Shown here piece after piece: positions 8,702 through 31,326 of a stretch of DNA of 34,259 nucleotides; positions within the stretch are counted from its first letter, which is position 1, and the number at the start of each line of letters is the position of its first letter. A model generated the notes under the pieces. The model searched no databases. It saw only the letters and a list, made by a program, of their open reading frames with translations, and had not been told where the DNA came from. The position numbers and the translations under genes are program-made. The DNA lies in the IMG/VR virus record IMGVR_UViG_3300020583_000030, positions 1 through 34,259 of that record, one strand, 5' to 3'. The DNA is from a virus.

Positions 8702-9130
8702 ATGACACAGCCCGCTACAGCCTCGCCTGTCGCCGCGACGTATCAGGTCGCACAGACTGTCGTCCTCTCGAGCCCCGGCGGCACCGGGACGCTCTACTGG
8801 ACCCAGGACGGTAGCATTCCAAAGACGGGCGTTGAGAAGGGATATCCCGGTACCGCGAGCATCCGGGTGACCGATACCCAGGTTCTTAACGTAATCAACG
8901 TCGACGCCAGCGGTACGAGCGCCCTCGCGAGCTTCCCTTACACGATCGTGCGCAGCGGCGTGAACGTGCCGGCTTACGGCCCCTCGAAGCGCGTCGTCGA
9001 CATACGCTCGTTGAGCTACGGGCTCAGCGGCCAGATTCAGCCCTACCCCGTCTATCAGTTCAGCGGCTACCGGACCAAGTGGGAGCGCGACCGGCACAAT
9101 CCGTTCTCAAGCGTGCCGCCCTACGTATGA
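8702..9130 (+). CDS. CHB_HEX_C-like beta-sandwich protein
   Basis: This 142-residue protein contains, at residues about 28-70, the pattern LYWTQDGSIPKTG, a glycine, TASIRVTDTQVLNVINVDASG. This matches the chitobiase/hexosaminidase C-terminal type of immunoglobulin-like domain ('y.tlDGs.Pt..s..Y...i.vt.s..l.a.a'). Such domains are non-catalytic and occur on surface and virion proteins. The C-terminal part (residues 90-142) is aromatic- and proline-rich. It ends in an ATGA overlap with the small terminase gene, so it is made with packaging proteins; it could be a decoration protein. Confidence 0.65.
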   Translation: MTQPATASPVAATYQVAQTVVLSSPGGTGTLYWTQDGSIPKTGVEKGYPGTASIRVTDTQVLNVINVDASGTSALASFPYTIVRSGVNVPAYGPSKRVVDIRSLSYGLSGQIQPYPVYQFSGYRTKWERDRHNPFSSVPPYV

Positions 9131-9912
9131 TTGTCGCCCAAACCCCTCGAGACATGGCGGACCCTCCCAAGCCGCCGACCCCGCAGCGCCTTTTGACCCG
9201 CTGGGAAGAGTTCCTGGGGTCAATCGCCGCCGGTCTTCCCCTGCAAGACGCAATGATGAAACACTACGTGACTCGAGCCGAGATCGAAGCCAAGTGCCTC
9301 GTAGCGGCCGAGCAGAAGCGCTGGAACGAAGCGCGCGCCGCGGCCCGCCGGCGGAACTGGTCGGTGCTCGACTTGGAGGACGTCTTCGCCCGGATCGGTA
9401 GCGGGCTCACCGTCGTTGATTCCGTTGAGGCGGTAAAGCCCGGCGGGTACCAGGGCTTTCATGACGTCGTAACGATCGATCCGGAGCTGAACGAGCAGTA
9501 CTTGAAGGCCCTGCGCCTGCGGGCGATGCACGTCGGCGAAGGGATCCTCGATATCGCCGATGATGATGACAAGGACACACTCGACACGGGCGGGAAGTCA
9601 GGAATCGTGCCCAATAACGCGAACGTGAATCGCTCCAAGCTGAAAGTTGAGAGCCGGCTCCGGCTGATGAAAGCATGGTATCCGCAGGTCTGGGGTGACC
9701 GGCCGACGACGCAGGTCAACGTTCAGATCAACCACGCCGAGAAGCTCGAGAACGCGCGGGCCCGATCCCGCGAGAAGCGCGCCATTCCGTCTGCCCGGAA
9801 TCTGCTCAACGCCGCGATCGACGCGACGTTCTCGGAAGTTGTTCCCGCGGGAACAAAGGACGGGAACCAGGCGGCAGCGGATCCACTCGACACGACCTGG
9901 ATGGAAGGATGA
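9127..9912 (+). CDS. terS: terminase small subunit
   Basis: The start at 9127 (MIVAQTPRDMADPPKPP) overlaps the previous stop as ATGA; a longer frame upstream lies within that gene. The 261-residue protein has two helical repeats with similar phrasing (GSIAAGLPLQDAM, and IGSGLTVVDSVEAV), as expected for DNA-binding helices, and then NRSKLKVESRLRLMKAWYPQ and VWGDRPTTQVNVQ. The latter follow the 'r.k..vdtRkwl.skl.pk.yGd....' pattern common in small terminase subunits. It would recognise the packaging site and stimulate the large subunit. Position just before the large subunit supports this; the zinc-ribbon gene in between is unusual. Confidence 0.78.
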   Translation: MIVAQTPRDMADPPKPPTPQRLLTRWEEFLGSIAAGLPLQDAMMKHYVTRAEIEAKCLVAAEQKRWNEARAAARRRNWSVLDLEDVFARIGSGLTVVDSVEAVKPGGYQGFHDVVTIDPELNEQYLKALRLRAMHVGEGILDIADDDDKDTLDTGGKSGIVPNNANVNRSKLKVESRLRLMKAWYPQVWGDRPTTQVNVQINHAEKLENARARSREKRAIPSARNLLNAAIDATFSEVVPAGTKDGNQAAADPLDTTWMEG

Positions 9913-10214
9913 AGCTCCTTGATCTGCGGCCAGAACTCAGCATAAAAGACGAATTCCAATGGGCGTTCCTCTCGTACGACTGCCCCGAATGCAAACGCAA
10001 AGGCGTCCAGCATCGGATCGGCAATAATATCGATATATTTGAGTGGGAGTGCGAGAGGCCTTGCTGGGGCATGACAGGAAGTAACTTCGCCGATCTTTCG
10101 CTTACCGGCTCCCGTGCTTGCGCACTCCGCTCAACACGCGTGATGGGCGGATGCAAAGGGCATTGGGATATTGTGAACGGCGAAATCATCTTCCACGGAG
10201 ATTCGGGGCAATGA
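9909..10214 (+). CDS. zinc-ribbon-like protein between the terminase genes (DUF6527-like)
   Basis: This 101-residue protein has a CPEC knuckle at residues 25-28, a WECERPCWGMTGSNFADLSL segment (46-65) and a C-terminal GGCKGHWDIVNGEI (80-93). The order (Cys knuckle, 'W.ltg....tlsl..S', then 'C.GHw.i.nGei') resembles the DUF6527 type of small phage protein. The cysteines and histidine probably bind one zinc ion. It is joined to both terminase genes by ATGA overlaps, so it is made in fixed proportion to them and may be a packaging accessory factor. That role is inference. Confidence 0.6.
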   Translation: MKLLDLRPELSIKDEFQWAFLSYDCPECKRKGVQHRIGNNIDIFEWECERPCWGMTGSNFADLSLTGSRACALRSTRVMGGCKGHWDIVNGEIIFHGDSGQ

Positions 10215-11713
10215 GCGCCGCCCTCAAACACGGGGACACGTCTCGGGCACGCGCCGCGCAGTCCTCGAATTCCATGACCGATGCAGAGTACGAGGAAGCG
10301 CTCACTGCCGACATGGGCGAGATGATCGACAAGTTCGAGGACTGGATCTATTACGCCTTCGACTGGGGCAACGGCGAACTTTCCGAGCATGACGGGCCGG
10401 ACAAGTGGCAGATCGCGGTCGCGCGCTCCGTCGATACGAAGCTCGAGGCGAATCCCGACTGTTCGATCCGTGAAGCGACCGCATCGGGCCACGGCATCGG
10501 CAAGACCTGCGAAGTCGCTTGGATCATTCTCTGGATGATGTCGACCCGCCCGCATCTCGCCGGCGTGGTAACGGCGAACACGATGGGCCAGCTCTCCACC
10601 AAGACCTGGCGCGAGCTTGCGCTCTGGCACAAGCGGCTCATCAACCGGCATTGGTTCAAGTGGTCGGCCACCAAGTTCTGGCACGTCGAGCATCCCGAGA
10701 CTTGGGCCGTGCACGCAACGCCGAATAGCGAGCACAACTCTGAAGCATTCGCCGGATTGCACGCGAAGTACGTGCTCATGATCTTCGACGAGGCGAGCGC
10801 GATCCCCGACAAGATTTGGGAAGTCGCCGAGGGTGCGATGACCACGCCGCGCGCATTTTGGTTCGTATTCGGGAACCCGACGAGGAACACCGGCCGATTC
10901 AAGGATTGCTTCGAGCGTGACTCAAGCCGCTGGACGATCCGGCACGTTGACTCGCGCACCTGCAAGATGACGAACAAAGCTGAGCTCGAGGAATGGATCA
11001 AGGCCTATGGGGAGGACTCTGACTTCGTCCGCATCCGCATCTTGGGACTCTTCCCGCGCAAGGGCGCGATGCAATTCATCGGCACCGACAAAGTTGAGCG
11101 CGCGATGCTGGGCGACGTGCCGTTCGATGCCTACTGCATGATCCCGATCGTCTTCGGGGTCGACGTCGCGCGCTACGGCGACGACAAGTCCTGCATCGCG
11201 GTCCGGCGGGGGCGGAAGCTCCACGAGGTGCGCAAGTTCGTCGAGATCAACACCATGCAGCTCGCCGCCGAGGTGGTCGTTGCGATGAAAGATTGGGGAC
11301 AGGTAGCCGCGGTGTTCGTCGACGGCGTGGGAGTCGGCGGCGGCGTGGTTGACCGATTGCAGATGCTCGGGCATCCGGTGATCGAGGTGAACGGCGGCGC
11401 GGTTGCGCTCGACGATGAGAAGTTTTACAACAAGACCGCCGAGATGTGGGATCGGATGCGCACCTGGATGGAGGGTGCCGATCTTCCTCCCAAAGACAAT
11501 GACTTGCGTCTCGCTTTGATTGGGCGGGAGTATTACTTCGATGACAAAGAGCGTATACGGCTTGAGCGTAAGCAGGACATGAAAAAGCGCGGGCTATCCT
11601 CCCCCGATGAGGCGGATGCTGTCGCGCACTCTTTCGCCGAGGAGCTGGGCGATCTCATCCGGAACAGCTTCGAGCCGACCCAAACAGAAAACAGCGTGGA
11701 GCCAGAACAATGA
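10211..11713 (+). CDS. terL: terminase large subunit (ATPase and nuclease)
   Basis: Starting at 10211 (ATGA overlap) gives a 500-residue motor protein. The ATPase half has a Walker A-type loop SGHGIGKT (92-99), a Walker B IFDEAS (191-196) and a GNPTR coupling motif (221-225). The RNase H-like nuclease half has FGVDVARYGDDKS (315-327), VFVDGVGVGGGVVDRL (369-383) and SSPDEADAVAHSF (463-475), giving acidic metal ligands D318, D371 and D466 or D469. All catalytic residues appear intact. It would pump and cut phage DNA at the portal. The glycine-rich loop G-H-G-I-G-K-T belongs to the subgroup with G-x-G-x-G-K-[S/T]. Confidence 0.96.
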   Translation: MSAALKHGDTSRARAAQSSNSMTDAEYEEALTADMGEMIDKFEDWIYYAFDWGNGELSEHDGPDKWQIAVARSVDTKLEANPDCSIREATASGHGIGKTCEVAWIILWMMSTRPHLAGVVTANTMGQLSTKTWRELALWHKRLINRHWFKWSATKFWHVEHPETWAVHATPNSEHNSEAFAGLHAKYVLMIFDEASAIPDKIWEVAEGAMTTPRAFWFVFGNPTRNTGRFKDCFERDSSRWTIRHVDSRTCKMTNKAELEEWIKAYGEDSDFVRIRILGLFPRKGAMQFIGTDKVERAMLGDVPFDAYCMIPIVFGVDVARYGDDKSCIAVRRGRKLHEVRKFVEINTMQLAAEVVVAMKDWGQVAAVFVDGVGVGGGVVDRLQMLGHPVIEVNGGAVALDDEKFYNKTAEMWDRMRTWMEGADLPPKDNDLRLALIGREYYFDDKERIRLERKQDMKKRGLSSPDEADAVAHSFAEELGDLIRNSFEPTQTENSVEPEQ

Positions 11714-12097: not shown

Positions 12098-12537
12098 GCC
12101 GCGAGTACATCATCGGGGAAACCAAGGGCAAGCGCCACGTCGTCGACTACAATGCGATCGACGCGGGCAAATCTCACGAAGACACGATCGCCGCGATGGA
12201 ATTCTACTACGCGAAGCAGATCGGTTCGGCGCTCATGTACGTCTACAAGAACCGCAACTGGATGGTCGACGTCGACATTCGCAATCAGATGATAGTGATT
12301 GGCGCGCCCGATCTCTCCAAGGTCAAGGGCTACTACCTCCCGATGAAGCGCGATGCGCTCGTCGAACTCTGCAAGCGCGCTGTGCACGCCGGGGGCGAGA
12401 TCCTTGAGCGCTACAATCTTTCCCGCGCGATGAATGTCTCGCCGGATTCCTTCGAGATGCTGCCGCGCGACTTCCGCGACGACGCGATCTCGGCGGACGC
12501 CGCGCCAACTCCGAGCACCAAGAAGTACAATGCCTGA
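12094..12537 (+). CDS. hypothetical protein upstream of portal (147 aa)
   Basis: This 147-residue protein is alpha/beta in character, with an early helix (EDTIAAMEFYYAKQIGSALM), beta strands (NWMVDVDIRNQMIVIGAPD) and a later helix (REDALVELC-type segment, then KRAVHAGGEILERYNLSR). It overlaps the portal start by 8 nt. The conserved position between terminase and portal suggests a packaging or assembly accessory, but no family is recognised. Confidence 0.62.
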   Translation: MSREYIIGETKGKRHVVDYNAIDAGKSHEDTIAAMEFYYAKQIGSALMYVYKNRNWMVDVDIRNQMIVIGAPDLSKVKGYYLPMKRDALVELCKRAVHAGGEILERYNLSRAMNVSPDSFEMLPRDFRDDAISADAAPTPSTKKYNA

Positions 12538-14896
12538 GCAAACCCGCGAAGCCGTGAATGAAACCCGGGGCGGCGCTCAAGGGTTCACCGTTGATCAGAA
12601 CAACGGCTTCTCGCGCACGGCTGGGGATCTTCCGGTAGGCGAGCATAACAACTCGCCGCTCCCGCCGACGAACGGCATCGGCGGGATGCAACTTCCTCTG
12701 GAGTCCGCGGCCGCGGGCATGGGCAACATGGGCACGCCGATGAAGGGCATGTCGGAGCCCCATCAAAGCGATGCCTGGTGCCTGAAGAAGGCCATGGATA
12801 TCTATGTTAATTCGCGCGACTACATGGAAGCGAATATCACCCTCGGATGGGAACGAAATCTCTACCACTTCAGGAATGAGCATGGCCCCGCAACACCCTA
12901 CGTCCGCGCAGATTGGCGTCGCGCAAGAACCTTCCGGCCGAAGACACGCGCAAACGTCAAAGCCCAGGAGGCCTCCCATGCAGCGGCGGCCTTCTCGACT
13001 GAAGACTACCTGCAGGTCAGTCCTGTCGACGCCACCGATGAGCGTCAAGTTATTTCTGCGTCAATCACAAAAAATTTGGTCCAACAACGCCTCGTTACTG
13101 CGCCTTGGAATTGGTTTCTGACCGCACAGGGTGCCTTTCAAGATACCAAGGTTTACGGCGTTTGCATCTCGCACCAGTATTGGCGCTTCGAGCAGGTCGA
13201 AGAGGTTGTGCCGGCTTATGACGATGACGGCATGCCGATCATGGGCAAGAACGATGAAGGCAAAGACTCGCCGATGGGGTACACGAAGTACAAGACGGTG
13301 GCCGACATGCCGGTCGTCGATATTGAGCCGCCCGAGTGCTTCCTCTTCGATCCGATGTGCGACTGGCGAAACCCGGCTCAGTCGAGTCCCTATCTCTGTT
13401 TGATGCGCGGCATGTACGCGCTTGATGTGCTGCAGTATATGCGGCGCAAGGATACGAAGACAGGGATGCCTATGTGGAGGCAGTATTCGCTGCAGCAGAT
13501 CACCGCGACGCGCAAGGAGAATGTCGACAATCGCACTCGCCGGGCTCGCGAGGGCAGGAAGCGCATCGATCCGCAGATGAACCAGGCCTCCGCCGAGTAT
13601 TCGATGGTATGGGCGCACCTCAACATCTGTCGCGAGAACGGTGTTGACGTCGCCTTTTGGACCCTCGGTACGAACTTGGTGCTTACGGATCCTGTGCCGC
13701 TCGTCGAGATGTATCCGCATCTATCGCCCGGCGAGAGGCCCTTTGTTGTTGGTTTTTCCGTCGTCGAGGCGCACCGGAACTACCCCGACGGCGACGTCGC
13801 GCAGTCGGCGCCTCTGCAGGAAGAGATCAACCAGATCGCGAACCAGCGACTCGATAACGTGCGTCTCGTGCTCAACAAGCGCTACTTCATCCGCCGCGGC
13901 TCGCAGATGGATCTCGATGCGTTGATGCGCAACATTCCCGGCGGCGGCGTGATGACGAACGATCCTGAGAAGGACGTCAACATAGTCAATACGCCCGACG
14001 TCACCGGCTCAAGCTATCAGGAGCAGGATCGCTTGACGCAGGACTTCGATGAGCTCGTGGGCGGTTTTGGCGCGCAGGCCGCGCAAGCGAGCGGTAAGCA
14101 GGTAGATCGCGCGGGTTCGCTCGACCAAATCCAGGGCGCCGCGGGCTCGGTGCAGGACTACTCGATCAAAATTTTCTTCTCGAGTTGGATGGAACCGGTG
14201 CTCCGACAGCTCGTGAAAATGGAGCAGAAATATGAAACTGACGAAACTCTTCTGGCTGTTGCGGCCAAACAGTCCCCTCTCTGGATCCGGTACGGCGAAT
14301 CCACTGTGGACGACACCTACCTTCAGCAAGAACTCGTTACCGTGGTGGACGTTGGGATGGGCAATACCGACCCGGTCAAGAGAATCCAGAAGCTTGCGTT
14401 CGGTCTAGGCCAAGTGATGCAACTGCCTGACATGGGCCGGCGCATCAAATCGCGCGATGTCGCGAACGAGGTCATGGGCGCACTCGGCTATAAGAACGCC
14501 GATCGGTTCTTCATGAACGATCAGGAGCTCGTCGAGCACATGAAAGCACAGCAAGGAATACCGCCACCGCCTCCGCCGCCGGAAGTGCAGATGAAGACGA
14601 TGGAACTCCAGCAGCGCAAGGACGAGGCCGATAAACGCGACCAGCGTGAACGCGAGATCGCCGCTAATGATATAGCCTTCCGCAAAGAGCAGCTCGCCTC
14701 GACGCACGATGTCGCGCACTCGAAACTCGCGGACAACGTTGGCATCCAGGCAGCCAAGAATCACACGATGCGTGATATCGCGGCAGCGAAGGAAGGTAAC
14801 CGGCTTGCCGAGGTCAACATGCAGCGCGCCGATAAGGCTCGGCCCAAGCCACAACCAGCTAGCAAGCCGCCGGGCGGCAAAGGACCACCTAAATGA
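12530..14896 (+). CDS. portal protein (podovirus type)
   Basis: The start at 12530 (MPEQTREAVNETRGG) lies 8 nt before the previous stop. At 788 residues it is in the size range of large P22-like portals. Recognisable parts are an early wing region with YMEANITLGWERNLYHF, a central stem/clip part, the conserved-type stretch SAPLQEEINQIANQRLDNVR followed by NIPGGGVM, helix-rich EQDRLTQDFDELVGG, and a long C-terminal charged helix after a seven-proline run near residue 677, which could form a barrel inside the capsid. It would form the 12-subunit ring at the packaging vertex. Position after terL and before scaffold and capsid fits. Confidence 0.9.
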   Translation: MPEQTREAVNETRGGAQGFTVDQNNGFSRTAGDLPVGEHNNSPLPPTNGIGGMQLPLESAAAGMGNMGTPMKGMSEPHQSDAWCLKKAMDIYVNSRDYMEANITLGWERNLYHFRNEHGPATPYVRADWRRARTFRPKTRANVKAQEASHAAAAFSTEDYLQVSPVDATDERQVISASITKNLVQQRLVTAPWNWFLTAQGAFQDTKVYGVCISHQYWRFEQVEEVVPAYDDDGMPIMGKNDEGKDSPMGYTKYKTVADMPVVDIEPPECFLFDPMCDWRNPAQSSPYLCLMRGMYALDVLQYMRRKDTKTGMPMWRQYSLQQITATRKENVDNRTRRAREGRKRIDPQMNQASAEYSMVWAHLNICRENGVDVAFWTLGTNLVLTDPVPLVEMYPHLSPGERPFVVGFSVVEAHRNYPDGDVAQSAPLQEEINQIANQRLDNVRLVLNKRYFIRRGSQMDLDALMRNIPGGGVMTNDPEKDVNIVNTPDVTGSSYQEQDRLTQDFDELVGGFGAQAAQASGKQVDRAGSLDQIQGAAGSVQDYSIKIFFSSWMEPVLRQLVKMEQKYETDETLLAVAAKQSPLWIRYGESTVDDTYLQQELVTVVDVGMGNTDPVKRIQKLAFGLGQVMQLPDMGRRIKSRDVANEVMGALGYKNADRFFMNDQELVEHMKAQQGIPPPPPPPEVQMKTMELQQRKDEADKRDQREREIAANDIAFRKEQLASTHDVAHSKLADNVGIQAAKNHTMRDIAAAKEGNRLAEVNMQRADKARPKPQPASKPPGGKGPPK

Positions 14897-15090
14897 TGAT
14901 CGACACTAGGCGGGTTGGAGCTTGGCTTGCGCGCGCGTTTTGGTATGCCGCCACTGTTGCCGCGCTCATCCTTGCATTCGTTTTCGTCATGAACGCAAAT
15001 GCCTTTCAGCAAGCGCAGGTCGAGATCGGCGTTTATCAGGCGAAAGCTATCGGGGCGCTGGCGGAACTTTTGAAAGGGCACAGCACTTGA
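14893..15090 (+). CDS. small membrane protein (65 aa)
   Basis: This protein overlaps the portal stop as ATGA (a second ATG at 14896 is equally possible). Arg-rich residues 5-14 are followed by one membrane span (WYAATVAALILAFVFVMNA, about 17-35) and a soluble helical tail ending LLKGHST. An N-in, C-out topology is expected from the charges. It could belong to a lysis cassette with the next, secreted-looking gene (inner-membrane spanin or pinholin type), though the tail is short for a spanin. Confidence 0.6.
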   Translation: MMIDTRRVGAWLARAFWYAATVAALILAFVFVMNANAFQQAQVEIGVYQAKAIGALAELLKGHST

Positions 15091-15230
15091 TCCGCATTGC
15101 AGCGTGCCTCTTGTTGATCGCGCTGCCAGGATTCCATGGCACACATGTGCCGGGCGTGAGGTACTCGGATTGGATGTTCTACGACGATGAGAACATGCCT
15201 GACGAGACGCACGTCACACACGATATTTGA
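15087..15230 (+). CDS. 47-residue secreted or membrane peptide starting at TTG
   Basis: The only in-frame start close to the previous stop is TTG at 15087, giving a TTGA overlap. The product begins IRIAACLLLIALPGFHGTHV, a short signal-like hydrophobic segment, then a polar, acidic part (YDDENMPDETHVTHD). A cysteine sits within the hydrophobic segment but not in a good lipobox. The pair with the preceding membrane protein resembles a small envelope-acting module; lysis is a possibility, not shown. Confidence 0.5.
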   Translation: MIRIAACLLLIALPGFHGTHVPGVRYSDWMFYDDENMPDETHVTHDI

Positions 15231-15251
15231 TGAGAGGAGTAGAAAGCCGCC

Positions 15252-15614
15252 ATGAGCCTTAAATTCGGATCAATCGATGCGCAAGCAGTCTGCGGTGTCT
15301 GTCAAGTCACCGTCATAACTACGGCAACCGGCACAGTGGTTGTGGCTGGCAACATAGCTACGGGCCCTGGCGTTGGCACGCAGGGCGGCAATGTGGTCTC
15401 ATATTACGGCTGCAATGTCATTTCCGTCGGGGGTAACAGCGTGTCGGTGTACCTCGTCAACGGCACGAGCACTCAGCTGGTCGGCATAGGAACAGCGACC
15501 GCGCTCGGGCTAACCGCCGCACCAGGGCCTGCGGGCTTTGGTGTAGCAGGCTCCGGAGCTCTCGTCGCAGTGCTCGGCACCGGCTCGGGCCAGTTGAACA
15601 TCCTTTTCCAGTAG
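15252..15614 (+). CDS. beta-rich Gly/Val/Thr protein (120 aa)
   Basis: This 120-residue protein has very few charged residues and alternating Val/Thr/Gly segments (TGTVVVAGNIATGPGVGTQG), typical of an all-beta, possibly trimeric or decorating virion protein. It has three cysteines (two in VCGVCQ). The TGTVVVAG/TQGG wording also occurs in the leftward protein 489-1094, so a distant relation is possible. Its location between portal and scaffold favours a head-decoration or neck role. The ATG follows GAGAGGAG. Confidence 0.6.
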   Translation: MSLKFGSIDAQAVCGVCQVTVITTATGTVVVAGNIATGPGVGTQGGNVVSYYGCNVISVGGNSVSVYLVNGTSTQLVGIGTATALGLTAAPGPAGFGVAGSGALVAVLGTGSGQLNILFQ

Positions 15615-15623
15615 GAGCGCGCA

Positions 15624-15854
15624 ATGCCTGATTCCAGCGGTTGGGGCGGACGAGTCCGCGAACAGAAGATCATGGATACCGTCGATGCGATGGCGGGTAG
15701 TGGCAAAGGGCATCCTGCTGCAGTGCCCACGCCGCCGGCGACTGGCCCAAAGACACATCCCGCAGCCTCGAGCTACGCGCCCGCCGCTGGCGAACCGGCT
15801 CCCGGACCGCACGTCTACGGCTCTCCGATCGAGGGCAATGGACCCAGCCAATGA
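15624..15854 (+). CDS. small Pro/Ala/Gly-rich protein with two HPAA motifs
   Basis: This 76-residue protein is likely disordered after residue 25. It carries KGHPAA (28-33) and KTHPAA (43-48), the motif shared by several neighbouring small proteins. A TAGGAG site precedes the ATG at 15624. The N-terminal 24 residues (GWGGRVREQKIMDTVDAMAG) form the only likely helix. It ends in an ATGA overlap with a 14-codon frame. Function is unknown; the motif may be a docking peptide for a capsid, portal or scaffold protein. Confidence 0.65.
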   Translation: MPDSSGWGGRVREQKIMDTVDAMAGSGKGHPAAVPTPPATGPKTHPAASSYAPAAGEPAPGPHVYGSPIEGNGPSQ

Positions 15855-15895
15855 AAGGCACCGACGACCTGATCAAAGGCACGGGCGACGCATGA
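15851..15895 (+). CDS. 14-codon micro-ORF linking two HPAA genes
   Basis: The frame MKGTDDLIKGTGDA begins in an ATGA overlap with the stop of 15624-15854 and ends in an ATGA overlap with the start of 15892-16071. It may be a coupling device that carries ribosomes from one gene to the next rather than a functional peptide. Its first residues (MKG) match the start of the protein at 16068. Confidence 0.4.
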   Translation: MKGTDDLIKGTGDA

Positions 15896-16071
15896 GTTTG
15901 ACACCGCGCCAGATCGCGCCAGGAGAGACAGCTAGCTTTCCGTTGCCTGTGGCAGGACAACCTGGTGCGCAATACCAGCGGAACGCTAAGATGCATCCAG
16001 CCGCGATCGAGGCATCTTCGCGCACGAATCCAGCGAACGCGGGGCGCCCGCAACTGGCAGGTAAGCGATGA
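15892..16071 (+). CDS. small protein with HPAA motif (59 aa)
   Basis: The start at 15892 (MSLTPRQIAPGETASFPLPV) uses the ATGA overlap with the micro-ORF. The 59-residue product has KMHPAA at residues 33-38 and is otherwise Pro/Ala/Gln/Asn-rich without a clear fold. Its stop overlaps the next ATG (ATGA). It belongs to the run of HPAA proteins. Confidence 0.6.
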   Translation: MSLTPRQIAPGETASFPLPVAGQPGAQYQRNAKMHPAAIEASSRTNPANAGRPQLAGKR

Positions 16072-16244
16072 AAGGCCCGATGAGCTTGGGAAAGCCTCCG
16101 GGCATGAAAGCCTCGGGGCACATCGCTTCGCCGAAACCGCCTAAAGTTCATCCGGCCGCGCAGCAGGCGCGCATCCGGTTACCTGAGGGCGAACAGACTC
16201 CGAGCGATCCGGCTCCGTTTTTACCGACAGTAGGGAAGGTGTAA
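16068..16244 (+). CDS. small protein with HPAA motif (58 aa)
   Basis: This 58-residue, Pro- and Lys-rich protein (MKGPMSLGKPPGMKASGHIA) contains KVHPAA at residues 26-31 and ends FLPTVGKV. It starts in an ATGA overlap with the previous stop. No globular fold is predicted from its composition. Confidence 0.6.
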   Translation: MKGPMSLGKPPGMKASGHIASPKPPKVHPAAQQARIRLPEGEQTPSDPAPFLPTVGKV

Positions 16245-16245
16245 C

Positions 16246-16464
16246 GTGCCAAGTGTTTCAAGAGCGCAACAGGCAGCCATGCACGCCGCGGCGGCGGGCA
16301 ATTCGACGATTGGAATTCCTCAATCGGTCGGCGAGGATTTCTCAGCAGCGGACCACGCGCGGGGACCGGCGAAGTTGCCGGAGCGAGTGAAGTCTCATCC
16401 GGCTTCGCACAAGTCGGAGCGTTTTAAAAGCTACAAGAGCCGATTCAACTTCAAGGAGAAATAG
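16246..16464 (+). CDS. small phage protein of the 'Q.r.MhAAA...GIP..V..eF..AD' type, with HPAS motif
   Basis: A GTG at 16246 starts a 72-residue protein whose N-terminus (SRAQQAAMHAAAAGN, then GIPQSVGEDFSAADHARG) matches a widespread small phage protein type found in structural operons. The C-terminal half is lysine-rich and adds KSHPAS (49-54), then a basic tail rich in Ser, Lys and Phe. The next gene begins at the very next base (16465). Confidence 0.7.
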   Translation: MPSVSRAQQAAMHAAAAGNSTIGIPQSVGEDFSAADHARGPAKLPERVKSHPASHKSERFKSYKSRFNFKEK

Positions 16465-16800
16465 ATGGATATCCAGGAGATCGAGACCAAACTGCATGTC
16501 GAAGCGGTAGTTGCCGCGTTCAATCGCGCCGAGGATCTGAAGACCAAGCTTGAGAACCTCGTTAAGCTCGATGTTGAGAAAGCGAAAGCCGACCTGCAGA
16601 CAGGCATCGCGTACTTTGAAGGCGAAGTCAAGCGGCTCGAAGGATTGATTCATCCGGCGGTGCTGCCATTGGTGCAGGCCGGGGTGCCGGCCGATCAAGC
16701 GATCAATTTCGCCAAACAAGGAGTAACTGTCGAGCAGCTCGTGGCACAAGGCGGCCCGTCCAATCAGGCGCAGCAGGCTGCGAAACTGATCGTTAACTAG
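16465..16800 (+). CDS. coiled-coil hypothetical protein (111 aa)
   Basis: This 111-residue protein is predicted to be mostly helical, with heptad-like spacing in residues 5-65 (VAAFNRAEDLKTKLENLVKL) and a helical end rich in Gln/Ala. A weaker relative of the local motif (LIHPAV) lies near residue 62. AAGGAG precedes the ATG. The helical rod may be a scaffold or neck accessory. Confidence 0.65.
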   Translation: MDIQEIETKLHVEAVVAAFNRAEDLKTKLENLVKLDVEKAKADLQTGIAYFEGEVKRLEGLIHPAVLPLVQAGVPADQAINFAKQGVTVEQLVAQGGPSNQAQQAAKLIVN

Positions 16801-16808
16801 GAGGATCG

Positions 16809-16994
16809 ATGAAGAGTCATTTTCTCGGCGGTGGCCCTAAGGGCAAACATGGATTTCCGATCGGCGACAAGAAGCACGCGCGCTTGGCCATAGGCGGCGC
16901 GACGCGTAGCTACAACGCTGGGAATATCTCCAAGTCGAAAGAAGAGAGCATTCAGTCCGCGGCAAGGCACAAGTTGCATCCAGCGGCGCGATAA
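16809..16994 (+). CDS. small basic protein of the 'FPI.dkkHAr.Ai' type ending in HPAA
   Basis: The 61-residue protein contains GFPIGDKKHARLAIGGATRS and SKSKEESIQSAARHKL, a wording common in small phage and bacterial proteins ('ypIpdkaHAr.AL....g.....e...i...v..k'). It ends with KLHPAAR, placing the local motif at the extreme C-terminus (residues 55-60). An AGGAGGA site precedes the ATG at 16809. Confidence 0.68.
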   Translation: MKSHFLGGGPKGKHGFPIGDKKHARLAIGGATRSYNAGNISKSKEESIQSAARHKLHPAAR

Positions 16995-17012: not shown

Positions 17013-17348
17013 ATGGCGGTCAATGTAGAAGAGATCGACTTCGTCGACGAGAAAGAGCGCGAACTGTTCGCCGCGGTAATGCTCGGCGATGACCTCAGAG
17101 AATTCCTACGCGCAACGCCCGTTGGGCAGTACCTGCACCATCGCGCGAAACTCACCATCCAGCAAGCCGAAATTGACGCACTCAAAGTCAACCCCGACGG
17201 CTTGCGCGGGTGGCTCTATGCTCGGAGGAAGCTCCGGGAGATTCGTGCACGGGCAGATGCCGCGCGCATGCTCATCGGGTGGTTTGGCGACGCCCTTGCC
17301 GATGCGAATAATGCTGAAGTCGCGTTGAAGGAGTATCGAAACCCCTAG
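17013..17348 (+). CDS. conserved-type phage structural-operon protein (111 aa)
   Basis: This helical protein includes LREFLRATPVGQYLHHRAKL (about 28-47), then a helix ending at ALKVNP, and RGWLYARRKLREIRARADAA plus a final GDALADANNAEVALKEY helix. The pattern 'fl.stp.G.yl..Ra...i..A...L..v.p...' is seen in small proteins near capsid genes of many podoviruses. The function is unknown. It is placed just before the scaffold gene. Confidence 0.68.
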   Translation: MAVNVEEIDFVDEKERELFAAVMLGDDLREFLRATPVGQYLHHRAKLTIQQAEIDALKVNPDGLRGWLYARRKLREIRARADAARMLIGWFGDALADANNAEVALKEYRNP

Positions 17349-17361
17349 AGGAGTACTAATC

Positions 17362-18552
17362 GTGCCTATCGAAACCGGCGGCGAATCCACTTCACAGAAT
17401 GACGGCAGCGCAGTTGCAAATGCTGCAGGAGCGCGCAAGATCCCCGCGAAGGCTCCCGGCCCAGATCCATTCGTTCAGTCGCGAGACCAGATGCTCGCGG
17501 ACATCGACGCAAGAATCGTCGAGCAGAGAACCCGAGAGGACCAGGAGTTTCTTGAGAGCGCGGATCCACGCGCAGCTCTCTTGCATCAGCAGATGCAGGA
17601 TGAGGCCGCCGGTCGAGAGACCAGCGCTGAGCGCCGCCGAGCGGGCCAGCAGGAGCGGCAAGAGCATCGGGCTGCTGAACGGCAGGCCATGGATGAAGCG
17701 ATTCAGGTCGCCGATCAAGCAACTAAGATCGACGACCGAGGGGCCGACCCGCTGGCGGACTACATTGTCCGGCGAGACGGGAAGCCGATGTTCAGAGCCG
17801 TTGTTGACGGCCGCACCGTCGAGGTGCCACTCGAGGAAGCTCGAGCGAACATTCAGAAGAACATTGCCGCGGATCGCCGCTTACAGGAAGCAGCGAACCG
17901 TCGTCGAGAGCTAGATGCTCGCGAGGCCGCGCTTCAGAAGCGTGAGCAAGCGCGGATTCAAGCTGCTCCGGTGGACACACTGGACCTCGATGCGGAAGCT
18001 GCGGATTTGGTTAAGGTGCTGGTATCAGCACCGGAAGATGTGGCCGCTAGGCGAATGGCGATGACGTTGAAGAAGATTCGGCAAGCTTCGGCCCCGATTG
18101 ACACAAACGCCATCGTATCGCAGGCAGCGGATGTAGCAGTCCGGACGATTGCAGTCAGGGATGACGTCCAAGCGAAAGCTGTTGGATTCAAGAAATTCCA
18201 GCAGGATTACGCCGACGTTGCGAATGACCCCGTTCTGTACGCGATTGCCGATAATCGAAGTGACGTGATCTTCGCGGAGCATTCCGATTGGACGCCCGAG
18301 CAGATCATGCTGGAGGCGGGCAGGCAGACCCGCGAGTGGCTTGAGCAGAAGACCGGCAAGAAGCTGGTTATTCCGAGCACGGGCCGCACGCAGGAAGAAG
18401 CTAGCCGCAAACGGCAGGAAACGAAACAGCAATTACGGCCGATGCCGGTGTCGCGTACAGTGATTCCGGCCGCCCAAGTCGATGACGGAGCCGACGATTC
18501 GCCGCAAAGCGCATTGGCGGACATCCGCAATAGCCGAGGGCAGGCGTACTAG
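17362..18552 (+). CDS. capsid scaffolding-like protein
   Basis: A GTG at 17362 after AGAGGAG starts a 396-residue, strongly charged, Gln/Glu/Arg/Ala-rich protein with long helical stretches (residues 40-115 and 150-210), typical of phage scaffolds. The N-terminus is disordered (Gly/Ser/Pro-rich), and the C-terminal region contains SDWTPEQIMLEAGRQTREWL and a basic segment KRQETKQQLRP, as expected for a part that contacts capsid protein. It lies 15 nt before the major capsid gene. No protease motif is seen, so the scaffold is probably released rather than self-cleaving. Confidence 0.75.
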   Translation: MPIETGGESTSQNDGSAVANAAGARKIPAKAPGPDPFVQSRDQMLADIDARIVEQRTREDQEFLESADPRAALLHQQMQDEAAGRETSAERRRAGQQERQEHRAAERQAMDEAIQVADQATKIDDRGADPLADYIVRRDGKPMFRAVVDGRTVEVPLEEARANIQKNIAADRRLQEAANRRRELDAREAALQKREQARIQAAPVDTLDLDAEAADLVKVLVSAPEDVAARRMAMTLKKIRQASAPIDTNAIVSQAADVAVRTIAVRDDVQAKAVGFKKFQQDYADVANDPVLYAIADNRSDVIFAEHSDWTPEQIMLEAGRQTREWLEQKTGKKLVIPSTGRTQEEASRKRQETKQQLRPMPVSRTVIPAAQVDDGADDSPQSALADIRNSRGQAY

Positions 18553-18567
18553 ACGGAGGAAGTAACA

Positions 18568-19491
18568 ATGTCAGGCCAACTTTGGAGCACGAACGCAGTC
18601 GGCGGATACATGTGGTCGCCGAACCTCAGCCGCAAACTGCGCACCGCGCTGCAGCCGATGGTTCGCTATCGGCAGTTCTGCGATGCGAAGGAAGCTTTCG
18701 GCTTGGGAATCGGTCAGATTTTCAACTGGAACATCTATAGCGACGTGGCGACGGCCGGCGGAGCACTGGTTGAGAACCAGGTCATGCCCGAGACCAACTT
18801 CACGATCACGCAGAACTCGCTGACCATTACCGAGTACGGCAACAGCGTCCCATTCACCAAGAAGCTCGATGATCTTTCGGAGCATCCGGTCACCGAGATC
18901 ATTCACAAAGTGCTGAAGAATGATGCTCGTAAGGTGCTTGACACGGCAGCCTACAACCAGTTCAACCTGACCCCGATCCGCATTCAGTCGACCAGCTCCA
19001 CGAGCTATACGCTGACCACGAACGGGACGGTCGCTGGCACGGCGTCCACCGCGCTCTACACCTCGCACGTGAAGGCGATTGCGGACTACATGGCGGAGGC
19101 CAACATCCCGGCATTCGACGGGGTCAATTACCTCTCCGTGTTCCGTCCGACTGCTCTTCGCAACATGAAGAACAACCTTGAGGGAATCCACCAGTACACC
19201 CCGGAAGGCTGGCACGTGATCATGAACGGTGAGAAGGGCCGCTACGAAGGCGTCCGTTTCATCGAGCAGACCAATATCGCGAGTCAGGGCTGGGCGAACA
19301 CAGACCGCGGCTTCTTCTTCGGATCCGACACGGTTTGCGAAGCTTTCGCAATCCCCGAGGAAATCCGCGGAAAGATCCCGACGGACTACGGACGTTCGCG
19401 AGGCATCGCTTGGTACTCTGAACTCGGCTTCGGAATCGCGCACACGGAAATCCCGGGTACGCGCATCCTGTGCTGGGACAGCGTGGCTTAA
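18568..19491 (+). CDS. major capsid protein (HK97 fold, N4-gp56 type)
   Basis: The 307-residue protein starts after an excellent GGAGG site. Residues 30-60 (MVRYRQFCDAKEAFGLGIGQ, then FNWN) and the SLTITEYGNSVPFTKKLDDL segment (84-103) followed by helix VTEIIHKVLKNDARKVLDTA fit the N4-gp56 major capsid family: E-loop, spine helix and P domain of the HK97 fold. The C-terminal GRSRGIAWYSELGFGIAH is also typical. It would form the icosahedral shell. There is no N-terminal delta domain, consistent with a separate scaffold gene upstream. Confidence 0.92.
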   Translation: MSGQLWSTNAVGGYMWSPNLSRKLRTALQPMVRYRQFCDAKEAFGLGIGQIFNWNIYSDVATAGGALVENQVMPETNFTITQNSLTITEYGNSVPFTKKLDDLSEHPVTEIIHKVLKNDARKVLDTAAYNQFNLTPIRIQSTSSTSYTLTTNGTVAGTASTALYTSHVKAIADYMAEANIPAFDGVNYLSVFRPTALRNMKNNLEGIHQYTPEGWHVIMNGEKGRYEGVRFIEQTNIASQGWANTDRGFFFGSDTVCEAFAIPEEIRGKIPTDYGRSRGIAWYSELGFGIAHTEIPGTRILCWDSVA

Positions 19492-19522: not shown

Positions 19523-20059
19523 ATGAGCAAGACCAGTGACCAGAGCCCGAGCAAGAAAATGCGCAAGAGCCACGGCGGGCGCAAGTCCGACGTGACCAAT
19601 CGGCCGGAGGAAACTCCGGCCGACGGGCTGGCTCTCAATGCCAAGCAGGGCATCAAGCAGATCCACTCGGCGGGCGACCCGGTGGCGCACAACAAGTCGC
19701 ACGGGACCGGAGAAGCGGGCTTGGCCCGAATCCTCGAGCCTGCCAAGAATGCGGATGAGTTCGGCAAGGGCACCGTGGGGAAACCCGAGGAGCTCGATGC
19801 GATCCGCGACGATGGCGATCAGGGTGACATGGGTGAAGAGACGCTGCTTTACGGCGGCGGGTACTTTGAGAAGGAAAAGCCAGGGTTGGAGGACGGTGTC
19901 TCTCTGCGAGAGAGTATGGACGCGGATGCGACCGAGCCGAACTACAACTACGACATCGACCCTCTCACGGGCTCTGCCCCAGAACGGAAGATCGGGCGAA
20001 CCAATAACTACGAAGTTAGCGGCAAGCGCGGCAACAGGTTCCTGATCGGCGAGATGTAA
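19523..20059 (+). CDS. hypothetical late protein after the capsid gene (178 aa)
   Basis: Of two in-frame starts, the ATG at 19523 has the better 9-nt spacing to GGAGG; the one at 19517 is too close. The protein is polar and probably disordered at its start (SDQSPSKKMRKSHGGRKSD), with an acidic middle (ELDAIRDDGDQGDMGEE) and a final aromatic part (NYNYDIDPLTGSAPERK). It may be a minor head or internal protein. No family is recognised. Confidence 0.62.
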   Translation: MSKTSDQSPSKKMRKSHGGRKSDVTNRPEETPADGLALNAKQGIKQIHSAGDPVAHNKSHGTGEAGLARILEPAKNADEFGKGTVGKPEELDAIRDDGDQGDMGEETLLYGGGYFEKEKPGLEDGVSLRESMDADATEPNYNYDIDPLTGSAPERKIGRTNNYEVSGKRGNRFLIGEM

Positions 20060-20151: not shown

Positions 20152-20622
20152 ATGGCAATGCGAGTACCTGCCACCGATTACGAATGGGGCCGTGCCCCGG
20201 CGGGCGTTACCGAAGATGAGTTCGACAGCCGCAAGGATCTCCTCGAAGGGATCAATGGCCGCGATCGAATGAATACCCATTTCGAGAATACTGAGCGCCT
20301 GCAAGTGCTGGCTCCGCGCGGAGACGCACGAGGGCGCCCAATGCCGCGCGATGCGCGCTTTGCATCCGCCGACAACCATGGCGAGTGGGGAACTGATAAA
20401 TTCCACCCTCAGATCGAATGCGGCATGGATGGGCCCAATTCAACACACAGCTACCACGGCGCGGGATTGCCCACCCGGCACGACCTATCCTACCCGGCCA
20501 ATCGCGATCATTGCGGTGCGCCGGCGGCGCTTATGGACGAGGACGGCTTGCCTTGCATCGCGCCCTCGCTGCATCCCACCGGAGCGAATCCGAAGGCAGA
20601 TGGAATCGACGGAGACAATTAG
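20152..20622 (+). CDS. hypothetical late protein (156 aa)
   Basis: The ATG at 20152 follows GGAGGTGACC; a possible TTG four codons earlier is disfavoured because it overlaps the ribosome site. The protein is polar with many His, Asp, Arg and Pro residues and little predicted regular structure (HPQIECGMDGPNSTHSYHGA). The 92-nt gap before it holds no gene. It may be a head-completion or internal protein; unknown. Confidence 0.6.
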   Translation: MAMRVPATDYEWGRAPAGVTEDEFDSRKDLLEGINGRDRMNTHFENTERLQVLAPRGDARGRPMPRDARFASADNHGEWGTDKFHPQIECGMDGPNSTHSYHGAGLPTRHDLSYPANRDHCGAPAALMDEDGLPCIAPSLHPTGANPKADGIDGDN

Positions 20623-30144: not shown

Positions 30145-31326
30145 ATGGCTTTCCTCGACAAGGCAAAAGAGCACAGCAAGAAGAAAAAGCACCCGGCTGC
30201 GGAAGCTCCGCCGTCAGCCGACGAAGAGAGCCAAAGCGATGAGAGCGCAGCTCCCGAGGGCGGTGGCGCTCAAGATAGCGAGAGCGAGCCCCCAAGCCAA
30301 GGTGGCACTGCTGCAGGAGCCGGCGCTGGCGGAACTCCGGATGCCCCACAGGCAGGCGGCAATCAGCCCACGGGTTCCGCTGAGGATCAAGGCAGCGACG
30401 AGGACTCCGATTCCGATCAGGACCAAGATGGCAGCGGCGGGCCACAAGGCGGTGACGACAGCGACAGCGGCGGGCAAGATGGCTCTCCCGGGGGTGGATC
30501 GGATGACAGTACTTCTCAGGCGCTCGGCGGTCAAGATCCCGGAGATCCATCTCCCGCACAAGCGCAGGGCGCCGCAGCGGCAGCGGGCGGAAGTTTGCAA
30601 GAGTTCAAAGATGCGGTAGGCCCGGATGGAGAGCCGGACTTCTCCAAGATCCCATTGCCGCCAGCATTATCCGCGGAGCTTGACAAAGCCAAGGATGCTC
30701 TCAATCAGGCGCTCTATCAGAATGAGAAAGTCGCGCGTGCGGTAATTCAAGCCGTGGTCCCTGGGCAGCAATTGCCTGCGGCCGCTGCGCACATGACGCT
30801 GGTCATTGTCTCATCCATCAACAAGAAGTTACTGTTCTCGAAGAACGCACCACAATTAGTGCTGCCTATTGTGCAGTTAACGCTCAATCACATACTAGAT
30901 ATGGTGGAGCAGGTCCGTAAAGCTCAAATCCCTGACAACCAGGCAGTCGGAGCGCTCGGGCTGGCCCAAGAAGGAGTGATGCGGATGTTCGGCGTGTCGA
31001 AGCAGCAAGTCGCGAATCTGAAATCGCATTTGCCGCCCTCGATGGTTTCGAAGTATCAAGCGCACTACAAGAATGCGCATGCATATGCGACGCAAGGGCA
31101 GCAGGGTAGTGCACAGGGCGCATCAGGAGGCCCACCGGGCGGCGCGGCTCCTCAAGGCCCAGCCGGGGGACCAGAAGGAGCGTCTCAAGGTTCCACTCCG
31201 TCTCAGGCCCCCGGCGGCGCAGCACCGCCCAGTGGAGGCGGCATGGTATCGCAGGGCGCTCAAGCTGCGCAAGGTGGCGCTGAGCCGAGCGGCCCAAGCC
31301 AGGAAGAGCAGGAGGAACAAGAATGA
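30145..31326 (+). CDS. acidic low-complexity protein with a central helical domain
   Basis: The 393-residue protein begins with a basic segment that includes KKHPAA (residues 14-19), the motif found near the portal, followed by a very acidic Ser/Asp/Gly region (about 20-145). A single folded-looking domain (about 150-300, with helices such as DKAKDALNQALYQNEKVARA and HMTLVIVSSINKKLL) is followed by a Gly/Pro/Ala/Gln tail. The pattern suggests an internal virion protein with a compact centre. It starts 1 nt after the previous stop. Confidence 0.62.
   Translation: MAFLDKAKEHSKKKKHPAAEAPPSADEESQSDESAAPEGGGAQDSESEPPSQGGTAAGAGAGGTPDAPQAGGNQPTGSAEDQGSDEDSDSDQDQDGSGGPQGGDDSDSGGQDGSPGGGSDDSTSQALGGQDPGDPSPAQAQGAAAAAGGSLQEFKDAVGPDGEPDFSKIPLPPALSAELDKAKDALNQALYQNEKVARAVIQAVVPGQQLPAAAAHMTLVIVSSINKKLLFSKNAPQLVLPIVQLTLNHILDMVEQVRKAQIPDNQAVGALGLAQEGVMRMFGVSKQQVANLKSHLPPSMVSKYQAHYKNAHAYATQGQQGSAQGASGGPPGGAAPQGPAGGPEGASQGSTPSQAPGGAAPPSGGGMVSQGAQAAQGGAEPSGPSQEEQEEQE

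Follow-up and report, generated by a model that had tools for sequence, protein, structure and literature searches.

The head modules of uncultured phages are full of small proteins with no assigned function, and a tag shared by several of them ties these proteins to one process and provides a handle for finding a common partner. The DNA analysed here (hereafter, the window) comprises one virus record of about 34 kb (34,259 nucleotides) that carries a head module, in which a short peptide, originally written as K-x-H-P-A-[A/S], recurs in small proteins encoded after the portal gene. Why should one peptide be found in several proteins that otherwise have nothing in common, and what might it bind? 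The features on which the following argument depends are these:

9127-9912: small terminase.
10211-11713: large terminase.
12530..14896, plus strand: portal protein (phrog_156), a candidate partner of the tag.
14893-16994: run of small open reading frames after the portal.
15252-15614: open reading frame of 120 amino acids without the tag, seen only in loci of a near-identical phage.
15624..15854, plus strand: S1, 76 amino acids, with KGHPAA (15705-15722), KTHPAA (15750-15767) and a conserved C-terminal YGSPI block.
15892..16071, plus strand: S2, 59 amino acids, with KMHPAA (15988-16005).
16068..16244, plus strand: S3, 58 amino acids, with KVHPAA (16143-16160); its start overlaps the S2 stop.
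16246..16464, plus strand: S4, 72 amino acids, GTG start, with an N-terminal helical domain (phrog_16759) and a tail containing KSHPAS (16390-16407).
16465..16800, plus strand: protein of 111 amino acids, probably a coiled coil, with HPAV at 16651, which is not a tag.
16809..16994, plus strand: S5a, 61 amino acids (phrog_16160), with the C terminus KLHPAAR; tag at 16971-16988.
17013..17348, plus strand: conserved protein of 111 amino acids upstream of the scaffold, found with or without the tag cassette.
17362..18552, plus strand: probable scaffolding protein (from position and composition), a candidate partner.
18568..19491, plus strand: major capsid protein (MCP, phrog_1357), a candidate partner.
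30145..31326, plus strand: late-cluster protein of 393 amino acids, with KKHPAA (30184-30201) in its disordered N terminus and a helical domain at about residues 173-325.

The MCP presumably has the HK97 fold, judging from its match to PHROG 1357 and established knowledge. Among solved structures the MCP gave no useful match, the portal profile matched one solved portal (9k09) weakly, and a family search with the probable scaffold found no match. The small open reading frames of the cassette show pN/pS values of 0 to 0.44 between relatives and are therefore real genes. A distant Klebsiella phage relative of S5a resembles DUF6582, weakly. It should also be mentioned that two proteins encoded downstream of the MCP (19523-20059 and 20152-20622) occur in nearly all tagged genomes and are recognisable in few untagged ones, which makes them possible partners, and that in related loci open reading frames resembling LAGLIDADG homing endonucleases by eye interrupt the cassette of small genes and the interval from scaffold to MCP (L004:4659-5033 and L009:10829-11371).

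The six K-x-HPA[A/S] copies of the original prediction are all in frame and at exactly the coordinates that it gave. Two of its details need correction: the last copy, described as an exact C terminus, is followed by one more residue (the protein ends KLHPAAR-stop), and the motif, which does have six copies between portal and scaffold, has a seventh outside that interval, in the late gene. The HPAV of the first 111-residue protein was rejected as a further copy, because its relatives read HPRV or DPKV. When residues were shuffled within the six small proteins, 0.004 copies of K.HPA[AS] and 0.11 copies of HP[AS][AST] were expected against the six observed, and none of 20,000 shuffles reached six copies. 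HPA is the sole tripeptide common to all six proteins, although in the 111-residue protein it is not the motif, and the density of HP[AS][AST] in the cassette is 50-250 times that elsewhere in six related contigs. As the original prediction had claimed, the codons differ between copies: His is encoded by CAT and CAC, Pro by all four of its codons, and Ser by both TCN and AGC. This mixture of synonymous codons rules out a DNA repeat or other DNA-level signal and means that selection acts on the peptide; together with the conservation in relatives described below, it gives strong support to the earlier proposal of peptide-level selection on a motif common to unrelated proteins.

To follow the motif in relatives, IMG/VR was scanned with the portal (23 loci) and with an MCP alignment (80 loci), and the small families S1-S5 were defined by profile searches; the alignment of S3 varied too much to serve in a scan of the collection. 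The core that emerges is H-P-[A/S]-[A/S/T], with an optional lysine. Among 77 copies, which were picked as HP[AS] sites, HP is followed by Ala in 46 and Ser in 31, and the next residue is Ala in 57, Thr in nine and Ser in five. The residue at -2 is Lys in 41 and Arg in nine, and is thus basic in 50 of the 77. In other words, the hexapeptide is conserved as its HP[AS][AST] core, whereas the lysine, being present in only 41 of the copies, is frequent and not essential. Within the families, H and P are invariant in the alignments of S2 (17/17 relatives), S3 (16/16; HP[AS] is present in 18/18 members) and S4 (16/16; HP[AS] is present in all), even though the aligned members of these three families share only about 36-84% identity with the copy in the window. 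In S1, 14 of 16 members have HP[AS][AS] in one or both of two slots, and the occupied slot varies between genomes; the exceptions are L021, without the tag, and L008, which reads HPNA. In S5 the core is usually present at the C terminus, and a short S5b variant reads HPGA, while the late protein keeps the tag in three of six relatives. Loss of the motif in close relatives that retain the rest of the protein, the outcome that would count against the original proposal, is therefore absent from S2, S3 and S4 and does occur in S1, the late gene and the short S5b. AlphaFold models S4 with its tag in a coil after two helices, and in the late protein, whose helical domain matches only uncharacterised phage proteins (E >= 0.003), it lies in the disordered N terminus with a pLDDT of about 40. 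As separate observations, a YG[S/A]P[I/M/V] block near the C terminus of S1 is invariant, and similar YGAPM/YGQRM blocks occur in small open reading frames of distantly related phages that lack the tag cassette (L062, L093 and L112, for example). Near residue 200, and at much the same position in each, the scaffold linker contains HP[AS] in L009, L004 and L018, three of the 17 clade sequences that could be used, and this could mean drift in Ala/Pro-rich linkers.

How is the motif distributed among these phages? The number of copies between portal and MCP splits the genomes cleanly into 11 with four to seven copies and 36 with none or one. In a tree of 49 portal sequences, the 15 genomes with the tag form one side of a single branch (SH-aLRT 100), which corresponds to a single change. 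The conserved 111-residue (or 110-residue) protein encoded upstream of the scaffold, the scaffold and the MCP are found on both sides of that branch, whereas the tagged cassette is not. In all clade members the tagged genes sit between portal and MCP, and the portals within the clade are 61-69% identical. A portal scan of genome contigs found no relatives, so that no host was assigned. The cultured podoviruses closest to this arrangement, Xuquatrovirus PTXU04, Vibrio phage 1.232.O and their kin, have a homologous portal and MCP (MCP identity about 51-55%) and a similar gene order, and differ in that the interval from portal to MCP encodes no small tagged proteins. In PTXU04 virions, mass spectrometry identified the portal, the MCP and two small gene products encoded downstream of the MCP (PMC6563267).

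Are the tagged proteins themselves related to one another? Profile-profile comparison of S1-S4 aligned nothing beyond the motif (probability <=18%); common ancestry of the families was rejected on this ground, since the motif alone is recovered. A more direct comparison is possible because S4, S5a and S5b are widespread phage families. None of 119 distinct out-of-clade homologues in these three families has an HP[A/S] tail: 0/41 for S4, 0/28 for S5b and 0/50 for S5a (the fifty-first S5a sequence, L275, is the copy from L007, which is in the clade, and was left out). One out-of-clade S4 homologue, a 675-residue NUDIX fusion, has HP[AS] internally. In other words, PHROG 16759 (S4), PHROG 16160 (S5a) and the S5b-type proteins have the same domains on both sides of the clade boundary and different tails; S5a, for example, ends ...AKLGK or similar outside the clade and ...KLHPAAR within it. 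As an observation apart from the tails, the S4 domain of Shewanella phage vB_Sb_QDWS is the N terminus of a 615-residue head protein that also has a NUDIX domain and a region weakly like DUF2213 (L138:6001-7848), encoded downstream of the portal and one further gene.

The S5 slot provides a case of gene replacement. Two near relatives, L006 and L007, have very similar DNA on both sides of this slot and unrelated proteins within it (L006:11913-12110 and L007:4276-4467, no BLASTP match at E<=100), and both proteins end K-[K/L]-HP-[A/S][A/S]-R. Because the DNA directly downstream of the tag is homologous, this pair may have kept the 3' end instead of converging. A third family has a similar end, as the S4 of L009 terminates in KKHPSAR. 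Sequence comparison indicates that HP[A/S] is a peptide tag which is specific to this clade and which unrelated proteins have acquired.

What, then, would such a tag do? We regard it as probable, with considerable room for doubt, that the tag is a docking or loading peptide for one partner, which most likely belongs to the forming head. In this scheme, the unrelated small proteins would each bind a common partner through H-P-[A/S]-[A/S/T], the partner would most likely be the capsid interior, the scaffold or the portal, and the tagged proteins would enter the procapsid together. Both the existence of a single partner and its place in the head are points that we infer. Procapsid docking is the leading explanation because the genes lie inside the head module and because phage T4 and the encapsulins offer precedents. 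The diverse small internal proteins of T4 have only a capsid-targeting sequence (CTS) in common, by which they are recruited to the precursor scaffolding core (PMC3012670); it is N-terminal, 10-20 residues long, and processed by the prohead protease (PMC5694885). A short peptide common to otherwise unrelated small proteins of one phage is likewise found here; the sequences differ, and the HPAA tag, of four to six residues, is internal or C-terminal in the S families. The HPAA tag is akin to targeting peptides, but because it lacks the N-terminal position of the CTS it is a variant of this arrangement and not a member of it. Encapsulin cargoes have a short, mostly C-terminal peptide that is conserved across species and docks on the luminal face of an HK97-fold shell (PMC7355545). 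Here, too, unrelated proteins encoded near the gene of a shell that presumably has the HK97 fold share a short, mostly C-terminal peptide, but encapsulins are bacterial compartments without an HPAA sequence, and for the HPAA tag docking is putative. In P22, which has a similar portal type, the inner proteins are described as co-assembling on the scaffold, the proposed docking site for the ejection proteins (PMC12005531). The part of that source on which we draw describes no common linear tag for gp7, gp16 and gp20, and the HPAA proteins differ in being much smaller and in being located between portal and scaffold. If the HPAA peptide were a loading tag, the principle of the T4 internal proteins and the encapsulins would also hold in short-tailed phages for which no prohead protease is known, such proteins could be recognised in sequence data, and a short peptide would be available for putting foreign proteins into phage heads.

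The families of one genome agree more than expected in whether Ala or Ser follows HP (p 0.006 for all 17 genomes, 0.037 for the 12 less redundant ones, both confounded by kinship), as co-evolution with one receptor would give, while kinship also contributes. A search for the receptor among clade-specific insertions and residues of the portal, scaffold, MCP, 110-residue protein and terminase found nothing decisive, and a search of the literature for the HPAA motif or a common phage tag found nothing relevant. Points against docking are that the motif is short and partly degenerate, and that it is missing in the S1 of L021, the short S5b and half of the late-protein homologues. The HP[AS] gained by some scaffold linkers counts against it as well, and so does the location, in some other phages, of proteins with shared tags away from head genes.

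The docking peptide would fit a host target as well, if the small proteins, expressed late or ejected, all hijacked or inhibited one host factor, for unrelated small proteins with one motif could also share a partner in the cell. In another phage (L220), moreover, a pair of proteins with an LGDQF tail adjoins a helicase and a methyltransferase and not head genes. The genes of the HPAA clade, by contrast, are always in the head module, from portal to MCP, and the tag persists across portals that are 61-69% identical and so probably across several hosts. We consider a host target unlikely, though it deserves attention.

Alternatively, the peptide may act alone, as a basic DNA-binding tail or a helix-ending element, with its recurrence due to biophysical convergence. 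Many copies do lie in Lys/Arg/His-rich tails, in keeping with the basic residue so often found at -2. What stays invariant is the H-P-[A/S] core and not the charge; a basic neighbour is often missing from the copies in S1 and S2 (AIHPAA, PPHPSA), and homologous tails elsewhere are basic yet lack HP. This makes such convergence quite improbable.

We find it very doubtful that the motif is left over from a common ancestor, or from the gene conversion of a single short module, and has no common partner. The C-terminal tags of S5a and S5b adjoin homologous downstream DNA, and a gene swap could keep the 3' end. Against this, the families align at the motif alone, the codons are randomised, the position within the protein varies, and purifying selection keeps H and P over the whole range of portal divergence in the clade.

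The original prediction spoke of a docking or processing peptide. Docking fits the results and is partly supported by the finding of a conserved peptide tag on unrelated proteins, and the single virion partner of that prediction is plausible, whereas processing is without support. Short processing sites are common to the head proteins of many phages, and the motif might be such a site for a head-maturation protease. It often lies only one to four residues from the C terminus, where cleavage would achieve little, and searches of four long contigs for S78 and ClpP-type prohead proteases, with working controls, found none; the searches for S77 and DUF2213 were uninformative, as their controls gave no signal. 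With a tag that may stop one residue short of the end, and with no S78 or ClpP found in those contigs, processing is highly unlikely. Finally, chance recurrence in proteins that are rich in Ala and Pro has a negligible probability, given the shuffling results (0.11 expected, 0/20,000) and the clade-wide conservation.

If docking of small proteins through a shared tag is the correct reading, is it peculiar to the HPAA clade? Different shared C-terminal tags are found in other phages, and the principle may therefore be general. Among 95 S4/S5 loci, taken outside the clade except for four in-clade controls, ten have another small open reading frame with the tail of the S protein at p <= 0.01, against about one expected; the controls contribute none of these ten, three of which are Lys-rich and weak. 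This excess was first spotted by inspection and then tested. We tentatively suggest, as a possibility and not as the likelier case, that many tailed phages use lineage-specific, usually C-terminal address tags for head loading, which would change together with their receptor, HP[AS]A being one of several. A search of the open-access literature found nothing on point, and the general pattern of shared C-terminal phage tags seems undescribed. If lineage-specific tags of this kind exist, a small phage protein of unknown function could be recognised as head cargo from its tag alone. The tails concerned are varied. LGD[Q/H]F is the exact C terminus of two unrelated proteins in L213 (2442, 3160) and again in L220 (2438, 3160). 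K-x-KGFKI is shared by an unrelated pair in L238 (522, 3184), and TIRK[L/M]PLR by an unrelated pair in L230 (2967, 3151). LG[D/E]xLAG ends unrelated pairs in L273 (2964, 3163) and L292 (2930, 3160), beside a major head protein.
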